From assembly GCA_005406025.1 (NCBI GenBank), contig BGZK01000004.1, forward strand, positions 930,001-994,000: DNA of 64,000 nucleotides, written 5' to 3'. Each line of letters opens with the position of its first letter. Position 1 is the stretch's first letter. The notes below the pieces were generated by a model. The model saw only the letters and a program-made list of their open reading frames with translations, made no database searches and was not told the DNA's origin. A program made the translations under genes and the position numbers. Origin of the DNA: Eumeta japonica. Lineage: Eukaryota; Arthropoda; Insecta; Lepidoptera; Psychidae. This document shows positions 29,920-44,832 of the stretch, one piece after another.

Positions 29920-31415
29920 TTAAAAACTGCTCGTAAATCAACAACGTATTTTCGTATCAATAATTTGATAAACGTTAAACAGTTTGGATTTACAAAGGGT
30001 AGCTCACCAACCGAACCCGGTTTTGAGTTTATTCAACAGATTTTTGTTGCCTGGGAGTAGTCCCGAAACAGAATCGGTGTTTTAGTGATTTATCCATTGC
30101 ATTTTATTACCTTCATCATGACACATTAATCAGAAAACTACGTCATTACGACGTCAAGGGTCGATCATTTGGACTTATGGAGTCATATTTGAGTAGCAGA
30201 GTTCGGAGTGTTGATATTATAGGTGAAAAGTCATCGGTAACTGTAGTCAATATGAGTGTACCACTAGGTTCAATTTTTGGAACATTTCTATTCCTGAATT
30301 ATAGTAATGATCTACCACACCTTGTAAAGGAGGCGCATGGAATTGTACTGTTTGCTGATGACACTGCCTTATTTTTTAAGGATAATAGTCAAGAACCAGA
30401 TTTTAAGGAAGCAAACAGAACTACCCAAGAAGCTGTTGAGTGATTTACAGTTAACGATATTTTGCTCAATGAGAACAAAGCAAAAATAATTAAATTTTCA
30501 TTGTCTAATACTAAATTGGTCGAAAAAAACGTAGTAGTCAGGCGCGAGATACTGGATATTGTGAACACGACCCTATTTCTTGGTGTTAGTTTAGATACTA
30601 AATCACAGTAGAATTTCCATGTAACGGAATAGACGGAAAAGATTATTTCTGCAGCATATGCAGTCGAAGGAATTCGGCGGCTTACACTAAAAGCACTGAG
30701 AGATTAGTTTATTTTAGTTCCTTTCATAGTCTCTTGACTTATGGAGTTTTATTATGGGGTTGTGGAGCCGATATAAACACATTTTTTGTGCTGCAGAAGC
30801 AAACTATTGGTGCCATTTATAACTTAAAATCAACAGGATCTTTCAGAGAAAAATTTAAAGAAATTAATATTTTAACTGAACCCTCACAATACATAAACGT
30901 AAACCAGGTATATGTCAAAAGAAATATAAAATCGTTTCAAAAAATGACTGACGTATATAGTATTTATACTAGACCTACGAGTTAGAATGACCTTGCTGTT
31001 CATAAAACGAAATTCAGCAAAGTTGGCTTGAAAATTATTTAAGGGACAATATGTGCGCTTTTATAATAAGGTGTCAGTTTAATTTCAAAAATTTTCCATT
31101 TCACGAATACAAAAATTTTCATTTAAAAAAGTTATATGATAAGGGCTATTCCATATCTGAATATATTAAAGAAAAACAAAACCGTGGGATTGAACTGTTC
31201 GGATATCAGGTTGCTTTGCGTAATTTTCAAAGTTTGTGCTAGATTTATTGGCTAATCTTTAAGCAAAAACAGCAAACCTTGAGTTTCTTGCCTATTCTTC
31301 TCAAGGTGGATCAGTATATGGAATGGGTGCTAATGTTAATATCAATAGAATACAATAATGACGTATTTTAAAATGTAATTTTATTACCTATGAAATAAAG
31401 ATATTTTTGTTTTGA
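29920..31415 (+). pseudogene. LINE (CR1/Jockey-type), 3' half with intact FADD motif and tail
   Basis: The plus strand reads NVKQFGFTKGSS (about 29970), a KAFDCV-type block in shifted frame, then the 88-codon frame 30177-30443 with MESYLSSRVRSVDIIGEKSS and a GVPQG-equivalent reading VPLGSIFGTFLFLNYSNDLP. VLFADDTALFF, the RT catalytic motif, is preserved (about 30345). Downstream are LTYGVLLWGCGADINTFFVL (30732-30790), KFKEINILTE and FHLKKLYDKGYSISEYIKEK. The element ends near 31410 with GAAATAAAGATATTTTTG. Stops and frameshifts between blocks make it non-functional despite the intact catalytic motif. It is 5'-truncated like its relatives. Confidence 0.85.
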
Positions 31416-36725: not shown

Positions 36726-37509
36726 CGATGCGAATGAGTGCCGTTTAAAGTTCTGCTTCTATTGATCAGACTTAAGAATTGCTTTTTGCAGAAGGAAAGA
36801 ATTTTAAGCTGAAATTGCTTTGTCGTATTACAAGCTATCTAAGGAAATAGTGAAGCTTGATCGCCAATACCGTACAGCTGCTTATAACAGCGGAAAAAGT
36901 CAGTACCAGTTGAAAGTACTCGGACATGGACGTCTTAGTTTGTGGTTCAGCTGGAGAATGTTATCAATTCACCAGCTCATACTCCGTAGAGTGACCAAGA
37001 GATTAGTTTCTTTGTAATCCTGTTAAGAACTAGTCAGCTAATCACAGAAAATACAAGTTTTCTACAACTGTGATCAAACTGTTTGAAAAAGCAGACACTC
37101 TCTTCACATATAACATTTTTTTTTCCAAAAGTGTTTTACATCTACAGACTCGAAGTCCATACCTTTTTAAATCGAAGTCTTTTATTTTTATACATCGCTG
37201 TTTGACATTTAAGATTAATTAGAGCATTATTCGCTCAGCACCACTGATTTACAATATATATATATATACAGTTTTACTTCCCTATTAAATATACTTACAC
37301 ATCTAAATACTTATTATGATTTAACTATTTCTTTTATTTTCCATTTTTTTTTTGGACCGATCTAGGTCCCAGACCTGAGTCATGGATGAGTATATGCCAC
37401 TATATAAGGGCATATGCTACATTCATAGGGTTCCTCTAGGTCAGAGCAGTTCCTGCGTGACCATTGCCACCAGGTTTGGTCAAATGTACTGCATTTCTTA
37501 GAGGTTCAG

Positions 37510-37745
37510 CCTATCGATGATGCGGAATCGTTTAATATCGCCTATCCGGAAGCCGTTCACCAAGACCGACGCCATCATTCTCACTTTGCTGTTTGCGTCG
37601 GCTCCCAGTCGGCTAGCAAACTTTTCTTTGAGGTCTCTTGCTAGTTCTCATGTTGCGGTGATGACAAAGTCCCTCCCCATTTCGAAGTGCTTCACGACCT
37701 ATGTTGTTTTCCTGTAGCCTGGGATTCCATTAACCCATGATATAT
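37510..37745 (-). pseudogene. SF1 helicase-like segment of the virus-like relic
   Basis: Motif I reads GIPGYRKTT (complement of about 37703-37734) against the GxxGxGKT consensus: the final Gly is Arg and a stop follows two codons later. Then GRDFVITAT, a stop in place of a residue, ELARDLKEKFASRLGA, KVRMMASVLVNG and FRIIDRL, the last aligning with the Walker B (DE) position with Glu replaced by Arg. The helicase would have unwound viral RNA. Both nucleotide-binding motifs are damaged. Confidence 0.5.
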
Positions 37746-38184
37746 CGGGCGCCACCTAGTTTTCACGGGCATTGCCGGAAGCTACAGCCCAACTTTCGTG
37801 CATTGAGTAGTGACAACTATCGGGTTATACGAGGGGGTGATGTATTTTGGTCTTTCTGTACGGTCCGTCTGTTCTTCATCAAAGGCCACCAGGCTATTTG
37901 GCGTACTATAGGCCACCATATGTATTGAATTTATTTTTCCTCTCAACATTGTTTGAGAGTCGTTATCATATATTGCGGTTTCCACGTCCTCAAACGCAGC
38001 CGTTAGTCGTGTCTCAGATTCATCTTAGTACAACTCTCACACGTGGCTTTGTGGACTTTCAGGGTTGCTGATGTAAGCGCTATGAACTCTGAGAATGCGT
38101 TCGCGTAGTAGTCTCGTATTCACTTTACAGGATCTGGAGCCGGCGAATCAACCTCCCCTTTTTAAAGCTCTCGTTGGCGCGATT

Positions 38185-38736
38185 TTAGGGTTTATTGGCA
38201 CTGTTGACTTCATCCTCTTGGCTTGCTCTCTTCGGGTATTTTTTTCCGAGCAAACTTTTTGCGGCTCTTCCTAGTGCCCTCAAGAATGCACGGATGCGAT
38301 TACGAGACTCGGAGTTTTTTTTGTCAGCTCTTTGCCTACTCTTCGCCAGCTCTGCTTTCTTGTCTTTGTTATGCGTTGATGGAGACGTTCGGAACCTGAC
38401 AAACCCTCGCTTGTTATCGGATGTTCCTAGGTGTCGACTATATTGACGGTGTTTTTTGGGTTGCGTTACAGGGTAGTTTATGGTTTCACCTCGATCCTCG
38501 TATACCACGACCACGTAAACCTCGGATGCTTTGATGCATCCTAGTCGGTCCATGATTTCTGCGATCTCGAAGACACCGATATCGCATTCACAGTTATAGT
38601 ACAATGTGTAATTGCCCCTTCGAACCCGGCTGCTACAAAGATGACAGCAATGAGTATGCCTGAGTATGCCTAAGAGAAGGGTGTTTTTCTTCCCAGGAGA
38701 ATAGTGGGTGTTTATTTTTTCCTGACTACCCTGCAC
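38185..38736 (-). CDS. Longest open frame of the window, part of the virus-like relic
   Basis: 183 codons, bounded upstream by an in-frame stop two codons before and beginning with GTG rather than ATG, so it is not an independent gene. Residues 42-72 hold the methyltransferase-like segment. Residues 105-183 are basic and serine-rich (NKDKKAELAKSRQRADKK, KSLLGKKYPKRA) and could be linker between domains. The preceding frame (38906-38712) overlaps it and leads into it by a frameshift near 38720. It is annotated as a decayed part of the larger element, not as an expressed host protein, though its length suggests either recent insertion or a late loss of constraint. Confidence 0.4.
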   Translation of the reverse strand: MQGSQEKINTHYSPGKKNTLLLGILRHTHCCHLCSSRVRRGNYTLYYNCECDIGVFEIAEIMDRLGCIKASEVYVVVVYEDRGETINYPVTQPKKHRQYSRHLGTSDNKRGFVRFRTSPSTHNKDKKAELAKSRQRADKKNSESRNRIRAFLRALGRAAKSLLGKKYPKRASQEDEVNSANKP

Positions 38737-39004
38737 TTCTTATCCCCGACTTTCACTAGGGATAGTACGTCGAAGACTTTGCGCTTCATACTCGTTTTGA
38801 AAGTGCTGCCGTTCAGGAGAACCGCTAATCTCGAAGAGATTGACATCCAGCGAGGTCCCGCTGTGCAGCAGAAGCTTATTCCGAATCTTTCGGTATTCCG
38901 ATCCATGAAAAGAGCTACCAGTCTAAGCTCTTCGATTCGGCACGTCCTTCTATAAGCGCTTGTTCCCGAGGTTGGTTTACATTTTGTTTGTTTGATTTTG
39001 GATT

Positions 39005-42000
39005 TATGTGTCTTAATGTTAATGTCTGAGGACCACTGTTTTTCTTGACTGCGATGCGAAAGATGACTTCCGCATATTCGAGAAATAAGAACCTTTTTAG
39101 GTAGGACTGGCCATGATATAAGGTACTGCTTCCTGGGTGAAATCTTGTTCTATTTTATGTTCAAGTCGAAATCATTTAGACATACATTTTATTATCATAA
39201 GCTCCAGTTCTGACTTATGGATTACAATCATTTTGTTTTGACAAATCATTTGGTTAGTGTTTTCGCCACTTTAAACGCGAACAAAAATAATGTCGATTAA
39301 TCGACATGTTTTCTTTTAAACAACATTAAATGTTTTCCTTGAAACACATTTTTTTAATTTAGCTACCAGTTAAAAAACGCAAATTCAAAATCAACAAGGG
39401 GGTGATTACCATTAAATATAATTTTGAAAGCAGCCCAAAATAATTACTGTACTTAGTATTCTGATAGAAGATTTTTTATTTTATATAGCCTTCGAAGCTA
39501 TAATTACATAGCATGGGACTAATTAAAAACGCCTTACAAACGCTTTACATTTTACAGCTCGTGATTACTTAAAAACATGTATTTTCCACACAGAATTGAT
39601 CGGGGTGTTGTTTGTTGATAACAATTCAAAGAATCTATATAGACTATATAGATAACCAATATATCAGACAAGTTGTTTTGATTAGGGATTTTGATGAAAC
39701 AAAAATAATTAAAATGTTTGACCCTGCAGGCCATCAATAAAACTATAATGTTTATCAATGTATCAATGTATCAGTACTTGTCTCAAAGCTGAAAAGTTTA
39801 TCTTAAAACTTTTCGAGCTCAAAAATTTAAAAAACTGTTGGTTTTACAACCAATTCCTGAAACTTTTTTCTACCTTCACACTCGAAGTCTTCAAAAAGTA
39901 CCTAATAGTAAGTTATTGCGTTTGAGCTCAAAAGAATAATTTTCATGTCTTTTCATGCTCATGCTTTTTAAGCTCAAAAATATAATCATAGTATGTTTTC
40001 AGCTCTTCGAGTTCGAACATCTAGATTTATTTTAATAAAATATTTTTTTTTTATTGAAAACTACGTTAACTATCGGACGCGTTGTTCTTTGTTATAATCA
40101 GTTCACGTATAGATTAATCCCATGGAAGGACCAAAACGCCAAAACCATGTTAAAAATCTCAAGAATTTTTAAAATACTTATGTATTCGTGTCCCCTAACA
40201 TTTGTATTAAAGCATTCTTTCTCATGTCTCTGAGTATTGTTATAAATATATAACCAACAGTGAAAGCCACTTTTTTATTGGCTCGTCTTAAGGACTTCTA
40301 TTGAGTAACTGATAAAAATTAAAAAAACCTTTGTACCGGATTAACTTACTGGCATCAGATAAATATGTTATTGGAATAGGAAATCCGAATATCGTAAAAA
40401 CAAAAGTTTTGTAAAGGTTGAAGAGCTCAAATTTCGCCATAATTGAACTGGGAAATTGGAAAATCGGTTAGTTATGACTGCGAGGTGCGTAGACAAAGCT
40501 CTATGTATAAAATATTTTATGTATTGATTTCGGCTCTTCTATCTCTTCCATTTAGAAGAAAACATAAGCATACGTATTCTTTAGGAATCAGTCTAAAGAA
40601 AATTAGAATTTAAATTAATAAATACTTCTAATGTTCCATTGTCAAGTTGTTATTAGTCGGTTGTAACTAAGATCTAAATTAAATCATGATCGAAACTGTA
40701 TGTAGAGACGGATTTTGAATAAAACAACTTGTAAAGAAAAGAACCAACCGATGAGGGTGTAACAAAACCGTGCGATTTGGTCTCAATGAAGTGCAAAAAT
40801 AAATATTTCATTATAAAAGCGCAACTTTCGTGACGGAATTGCAGAATGAGACTCTGTAGCTGTTACTGAAATGAAAATTGAACTAAATAGTGAAAACCAG
40901 GTCGTTTGCTGTTAACCGTTTATGAGGCTATAAATAGAGTCACGCACGTTGAACGCAAAACAAAACGCAAAATATTTTGAGAATGCGAATTTATATCGAA
41001 ACAGAATTTCAGAATTATTTAAACGAAGTTTTTTTTTGATATCTCTTGAAAATATTAATCGATTTTGATTGAACAAGCGACAATCAACGCAGGCTTTATA
41101 AAAAGTTCTATAAAGTTCTATAAAAGAATTCAGAACATGCATTTAATCATGAGAGGAGCTTCCTAGGACCTCAAAACGTCAAGACCTGATGAAAACTCGA
41201 TTTTCGAAAAATGGGGCAAGACCAATAACTCTCTAGTTTCCGAAAATTTTAAATTTTCTCAGTAAAGTTAAAAAATACTATAAGATGTGAGACGAGTATT
41301 GTATGACATTTTTATTACTTTTAGAATACCTGATAGACTAATCAGTAATTGTTGCTACCGCTTTACTTTATATGCTTTATGGGAGATATTATCTCGAAAA
41401 AGGTGTCAAAATACATTCTGGTGGCGGTAGAAAGTCAAATACAGCGTTTTAACCACACCATCTCGGACTCGCTCGTGGCGCAAAATCTGTACAAAATTGA
41501 AAATTTTCAGAGAATAAACTCGGAAATTTCCAGTAGAATTTAAGTAATAGTATAAAAAAGGCAAGACTCACCTCAGACGAAGTTATTTATGGCAACTACA
41601 GTGAACAACTAAACTTATCCGATATTGGACGAATTAATTGAACAAACTCGTTTAGACTGTTTAGGCGTAAAGCGGTAGCGAACAGGAAAAATTAAACAAA
41701 GATATGTTAAAAATAAGCTGCTAACCATTCGATAAAACAAACGCAACGAGATAGTCAAAATCATTAAAATAGGTTTTCAGAATCAAGGGGAAAAATATAA
41801 AATTTCTAGACTTGTACGAGTGTCTGTTTCGGATAATCATGGTGTTAGGTAACAACTGGTTCAGTATAACCCAGGAATTTGTATTTATAAAGAATAAGTT
41901 GCAGTAGATAGAATGCAATCATGGGTCCAAAAGGATGAAGGTGACAATTTCACGATCTCTCAGATTCTTATAATAATAACAACAACGCTGACTCCGTGTC

Positions 42001-44449: not shown

Positions 44450-44832
44450 CAGACAGTCTGACAAACAGTAGCCTATCGTTTGTGCATACACAAGTTCTTC
44501 CTGTACACCAATTTTCATTTAGTTTGTTGAAACCTTTTTTAAGTTATAAAAAAACCAGCAGACAAATAAACAGACTAACAGATGGTAACCTATCGTTTGC
44601 GCAATCAAATGTTCTTACTGTACACAAATTTTCATTAAGAGCGGTGAAATCTGTTTGAAAGTATGAAAGAAAGTGCACATAGAAACAAACAAATAGACAG
44701 ATTGGCAGACAGTAGCCTATCATTTGCGCAATCACACGTTCTTACTACATATCAACTTTCATCATGATCGGTCAAGCCGTTTTTAAATTATAAAAGAACA
44801 TACAGACTGACAAACAGACTAACAGCCATAAA
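44450..44832 (+). repeat. Tandem array of three ~117-127-bp units
   Basis: Each unit has CAGACAGxxxGACAAACAG, GTAGCCTATC(G/A)TTTG(C/T)GCA, (A/G)TTCTTACTGTACA, AATTTTCAT and a GGTxAAACC-TTTTTxAAxTTATAAAA end. The CCTAT landmark falls at 44472, 44589 and 44716. The same unit occurs twice in opposite orientation at 46515-46805. No coding capacity. Confidence 0.7.

Follow-up and report, generated by a model that had tools for sequence, protein, structure and literature searches.

The window analysed here comprises 64,000 nucleotides of contig BGZK01000004.1 of the bagworm Eumeta japonica. Its minus strand carries, in this order, the peptides CECDIGVFEIAEIMDRLG, VNGIPGYRKTT, FVITAT, KVRMMASVLVNG and FRIIDRL, with stops and frame changes between them, all of which an earlier sequence-only reading had named and placed in that order. 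The first peptide sits inside a minus-strand frame of 184 codons from stop to stop (38188-38739), the longest of the window, as that reading had held with a count of 183. The GC-richer block that it had pointed to is also present, 38001-39000 being the most GC-rich kilobase of the window (0.465). The block, placed at 37430..39000, had been taken for the relic of an RNA-virus replicase. Homologous sequence does occupy this interval, and the true span is wider, about 37117-39170. The block is very probably a dead copy, lacking the 5' part, of a LINE whose ORF2 has the order endonuclease, reverse transcriptase (RT), RNase H, long linker and virus-derived SF1 helicase. Its parts are given below, with L numbers for loci of the same genome and P numbers for proteins.

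37117..39170, minus strand: whole element, very probably the decayed remainder of a helicase-bearing LINE, truncated at its 5' end and retaining the 3' part of ORF2 and the 3' UTR; DNA matches to siblings span 37112-39174
39166..39174, minus strand: 5' truncation point; the match with L064, L066, L069, L070 and L072 breaks off here, LINE ORF2 extending further upstream in these loci
38715..39149, minus strand: piece A, where the linker begins behind RNase H; tblastn matches to L062 (5e-17) and L045 (7e-15), 57% identity to P0011 residues 376-445
38188..38739, minus strand: piece B, LINE linker between RNase H and helicase, formerly read as a methyltransferase; matches the spacer frame of L047 (E 2e-6)
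38006..38119, minus strand: piece C, where the N-terminal domain of the virus-type helicase module begins; matches P0011 665-694 (E 2e-6)
37785..38024, minus strand: piece D (80 aa), N-terminal domain of the helicase module; at least 107 match rows in the own genome, P0008 at E 7e-23
37702..37734, minus strand: VNGIPGYRKTT, read from the sequence as the decayed P-loop (motif I), with a stop behind it; sibling L043 has VNGVPGCGKTT
37501..37647, minus strand: piece F, covering the helicase motifs that follow the P-loop (KVRMMASVLVNG) and, beyond motif III, the FIDRLNL stretch; L045 at E 2e-11, P0007 at E 1.2e-11
37546..37548, minus strand: deletion 1, about 105 nt with the Walker B motif, present in siblings (L054 5492/5386, L052 4500/4607)
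37299..37369, minus strand: deletion 2, where siblings are longer by roughly 700 nt holding the second half of the helicase (L049 6012-6764 against window 37369-37299)
37116..37305, minus strand: 3' UTR and short poly(A) end common to siblings; L039/L052 (one place), L049 and L059 reach 37112-37117

Linker and helicase of the window copy

The long pieces of the window are collinear with LINE ORF2 proteins. On the 1152-residue protein P0011, pieces A, B, C, D and F fall in order on residues 376-445, 498-526, 665-694, 708-777 and 835-866, and since P0011 has its RNase H at 35-160 and its helicase at 806-1060, they map between RNase H and the end of the helicase. As a control, all stop-to-stop pieces of at least 25 aa were taken from both strands of the whole window: of these 1491 pieces, 21 of them in the block, six match the open frames of the relative L047 at E<=1e-3, and all six lie within the block, a signal beyond chance. 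Scanned against Pfam and PDB, the window's own pieces, short and decayed as they are, returned no usable match. Protein searches found one relative of piece B besides itself and none of piece D, and a search that started from an open relative found 33 proteins.

Piece B, in which a viral methyltransferase had been seen upstream of the helicase, matches the Eumeta protein P0002 (47% identity, E 1.9e-18) and P0014 (3.5e-12), and has no Pfam match. P0002 is EVAR_77744_1, encoded at 100% over 180 residues by sibling locus L066. The Vmethyltransf profile (PF01660) found no match among the scanned window pieces, sibling copies and relatives. The peptide CECDIGV within this segment is probably not in the frame of the family at its place: the neighbouring frame there reads ITVNAISVS, comparable to ISIDAISVS of P0002 (E 3e-6), and P0012, P0013 and P0034, whose local alignments to piece B do cross CECDIGV, have almost no identity there. 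From FEIAEIMDRLG onward, downstream of CECDIGV, the piece is in frame. Since the LINE family reads another frame at CECDIGV, the supposed methyltransferase segment is LINE linker, partly out of frame, and the methyltransferase assignment was dropped. In P0011, the stretch 371-520 of the linker gives a structure prediction of fair confidence (block means mostly 66-91, and 41 at 491-500); this stretch is found in other moths and is without known relatives. A bolder, wholly speculative suggestion would be that the linker, an orphan, might likewise be a viral domain worn beyond recognition.

The assignment of an SF1 helicase of RNA-virus type, by contrast with that of the methyltransferase, is borne out. 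The window's own short pieces give no match to Viral_helicase1 (PF01443); the profile is matched in single unbroken pieces of siblings L056 (E 4.6e-9) and L063 (E 2.3e-8), as well as in the open relative L047 (E 5.1e-32), and structures of the Tomato mosaic virus (ToMV) replicase helicase (PDB 3vkw, 3wrx) are matched at E 3e-25. These matches support a helicase of tobamovirus/virga type, ultimately of viral origin. Piece C matches the helicase-bearing LINEs of a young group described below (E 0.004) and falls inside the part of the P0011 model (650-1087) that aligns with 3vkw, while piece D matches the same young group at E 1e-9. VNGIPGYRKTT was rightly read as the P-loop, now decayed. FRIIDRL had been read as Walker B and is rejected as such: it corresponds to the stretch after motif III, GDVNQFPFIDRLNL in L043, of which it is a remnant, the Walker B motif itself having been lost from the window copy with the approximately 105 nt of deletion 1. 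Over gap-free alignments, the window copy is 0.735 (L068) to 0.847 (L064) identical to its siblings. Searches of a viral contig collection for relatives found none; a scan of the same collection for the P-loop pattern gave 36 loci, and in 34 of these the stretch following the P-loop does not, by eye, resemble a virga-type helicase.

Sibling copies and the LINE enzymes upstream

The own genome was searched over 701.7 Mb in 5067 contigs; match rows there are pieces rather than copies, and counts are lower bounds. For piece D, the better matches are mostly at 58-70% identity, with a second, nearly uniform group at about 41%. A 293-aa piece of sibling L044 has at least 138 match rows.

The window copy is truncated before the endonuclease and the RT and holds neither; its identity as a LINE therefore rests on its siblings. 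L064 matches the first frame of L047, which contains the endonuclease, and its RNase H frame, then runs into window-like sequence, 84-85% identical to window 38732-39170; the helicase core is absent from this locus. RT, RNase H, linker and helicase are matched in one stretch in L065, as are RT, the end only of RNase H, linker and helicase in L069, and RNase H, linker and helicase are matched in L071. Within the window's subfamily, endonuclease is thus seen in L064, RT in L065 and L069, and RNase H in L064, L065, L070 and L071; none of the loci fetched is a sibling complete from endonuclease to helicase. The full domain order is seen in L047, which matches Exo_endo_phos_2 (PF14529, 3.9e-19), RVT_1 (PF00078, 7.5e-14), RNase_H (PF00075, 4.9e-12) and then PF01443, its frames being open though not one continuous frame. 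The statement that no retroviral enzyme surrounds the block holds for the window copy, which has no adjoining RT, and fails for the siblings, which have RT/RNase H directly upstream.

LINE insertion leaves variable 5' ends and a common 3' end. The 5' ends of the sibling matches vary from 38025 to 39174, and the window copy is sharply truncated: upstream of the break, RNase H or RT follows in L064, L069 and L070, and in L066 and L072 the break falls where RNase H ends or past it. The window copy ends, at 37117, in a short A-run, as do L049 and L052, and a broken A-run lies near the end of L059; most sibling matches end in the alignment some bases before the poly(A). Another A-run, at about 37352, was considered as the 3' end and rejected, sibling homology extending to 37117. 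A check for a target-site duplication turned up no convincing one, the best 12-mer match being 10, a value that 72 of 2000 random pairs also reached. Domain order (in L047, and partly in siblings), collinearity of the pieces, 5' truncation, an A-rich 3' end and high copy number are thus all observed. The copy would have arisen when target-primed reverse transcription stopped early, and would then have decayed through substitutions, frame changes and two deletions. Most likely it does nothing; it may possibly be a putative source of small RNAs.

The window also holds, at 30027-30443 on the plus strand, another RT fragment (RVT_1, E 6.6e-9) that has no match to the L047 frames at E<=1e-3, and other LINE debris is therefore present.

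An independent germline integration of a virga/nege-like virus replicase, unrelated to any LINE, is very improbable. Its appeal lies in the virga/tobamovirus type of the helicase and in reports of such insertions in insects (Kondo et al. 2017, as cited in the available text of PMC6338049). However, the linker upstream matches LINE proteins, the copies are numerous and share a 3' end, and no Vmethyltransf match was found in the pieces, siblings and relatives scanned. An endogenous element of this kind is expected to combine a virus-type SF1 helicase, which is seen in L056 and L063, with a lack of retrotransposon coding sequence, whereas the siblings here are continuous with LINE RNase H/RT. Collinearity with LINE ORF2 in effect refutes an independent integration, and with it the fossil of a stand-alone RNA-virus replicase proposed from the sequence alone, which was to be given up if the block better matched a transposon protein, as it does in LINE ORF2. 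Still more improbable is the secondary gain of a LINE helicase tail by a host gene or by a non-autonomous repeat, as might be read from the many copies, the window's included, that match in linker and helicase only: the 5' match ends vary over the range given above, several copies hold LINE enzymes, only about 37 of the at least 138 rows of the L044 piece are stop-free and most have internal stops (the 80-aa piece, many of whose rows are stop-free, being too short to judge), and among the loci fetched there is no set of copies with a common 5' end at 39170 and intact frames.

Helicase-bearing LINEs in Lepidoptera and in the Eumeta genome

Two papers, of 2015 (Lazareva et al., PMC4686597) and 2017 (Morozov et al., PMC5563155), described LINEs of TRAS type that bear a helicase in Lepidoptera, and the window copy, as a decayed LINE copy, belongs to this kind as the available text of these papers presents it. 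There, the ORF2 of SF1H-bearing LINEs of the TRAS superfamily carries endonuclease, RT and a C-terminal virga/tobamovirus-like helicase. The likeness extends to a C-terminal helicase behind a linker that exceeds 300 aa and has no known relatives, to multiple copies and to a lepidopteran host; the window copy differs in that it is dead and reduced to a 3' fragment, that its subfamily is older and dispersed, and that no telomeric repeats adjoin it. Here, a C-terminal Viral_helicase1 after such a linker is found in P0011, and endonuclease and RT upstream in the same element are found through L047 and the siblings of the subfamily, the TRAS likeness being one of layout, as the tree described below covers the helicase only. 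According to the available text of PMC5563155, Jockey LINEs of Hemiptera and Orthoptera also carry a virus-type SF1 helicase; they belong to another LINE group and have it in ORF1, unlike the element here, in which it lies at the C-terminus of ORF2. Compared with the ToMV replicase helicase (3vkw, 3wrx), the present one lies within a LINE ORF2, and no viral polymerase or methyltransferase was found alongside. Following the published account as available (PMC4686597, PMC5563155), an ancestral LINE of Lepidoptera would have taken up the helicase from a virga-like virus and carried it along ever since as a part of itself. Because LINEs spread a captured helicase, a virus-like helicase relic in a moth genome is not necessarily the fossil of a germline infection, and such LINE copies should be left out when endogenous RNA viruses of Lepidoptera are counted. 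A literature search listed no report of Eumeta copies; Psychidae is not mentioned in the available text of PMC5563155, whose Table 3 names Tineidae, and a bagworm is thus added to the hosts named in what is available of the two papers.

In the Plutella xylostella protein P0019, the LINE helicase is joined, in precomputed Pfam annotation, with domains that we take from their accessions to be C2H2 zinc fingers; this protein may possibly be a host-gene fusion or an annotation artefact.

L047 belongs to a young group of five loci. In four of them, L045, L046, L047 and L062 but not in L061, the helicase is followed downstream by telomeric dimers or longer runs. On contigs C2601 (8751, 18392, 28046) and C2542 (30487, 40121, 49597), young helicase-bearing LINEs recur every 9.5-9.7 kb in one orientation, as in head-to-tail arrays. 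TRAS in the narrow sense denotes elements with insertion specific to telomeric repeats, (TTAGG)n/(CCTAA)n. The window contains no TTAGG/CCTAA dimer, and the window copy is therefore not filed as TRAS in this sense; telomeric repeats occur in just one of the 15 sibling loci examined, each 9.9 kb long, namely L057, where they are not adjacent. A tree of 31 helicase rows separates the window's group (three single pieces from copies other than the window's) from the telomeric group (five rows), with supports of 100/99 and 100/100, and 16 of the 28 inner branches are open in the deeper order.

Non-synonymous differences between L047 and the window's group are 0.26-0.40 for the helicase core, against 0.31-0.45 for RT and RNase H; conservation of the helicase thus appears roughly equal to that of the enzymes proper to the LINE, in a comparison between clades to be read with caution as the copies are dead and their synonymous sites mostly saturated. 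For L047 and L045, dN/dS is 0.31 in the helicase, 0.42 in RT and RNase H, 0.20 in the linker and 0.66 in the first frame (endonuclease), and other pairs within the young group range over 0.13-0.76; these values point weakly to constraint. We tentatively suggest, as a somewhat doubtful reading, that the helicase-bearing LINEs of this genome may form two clades that parted long ago: a young clade next to telomeric repeats, and an older, scattered clade that would include the window copy. The helicase core being about as similar between them as RT/RNase H, the helicase may be a working part of the retrotransposition protein rather than a passenger, and one clade may have lost telomere targeting. 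The interest of the two groups is that a single genome displays two separate clades of such LINEs.

Elsewhere in the window, 44453-44825 is a tandem array of a 117-bp unit, with about three copies at 69% match.
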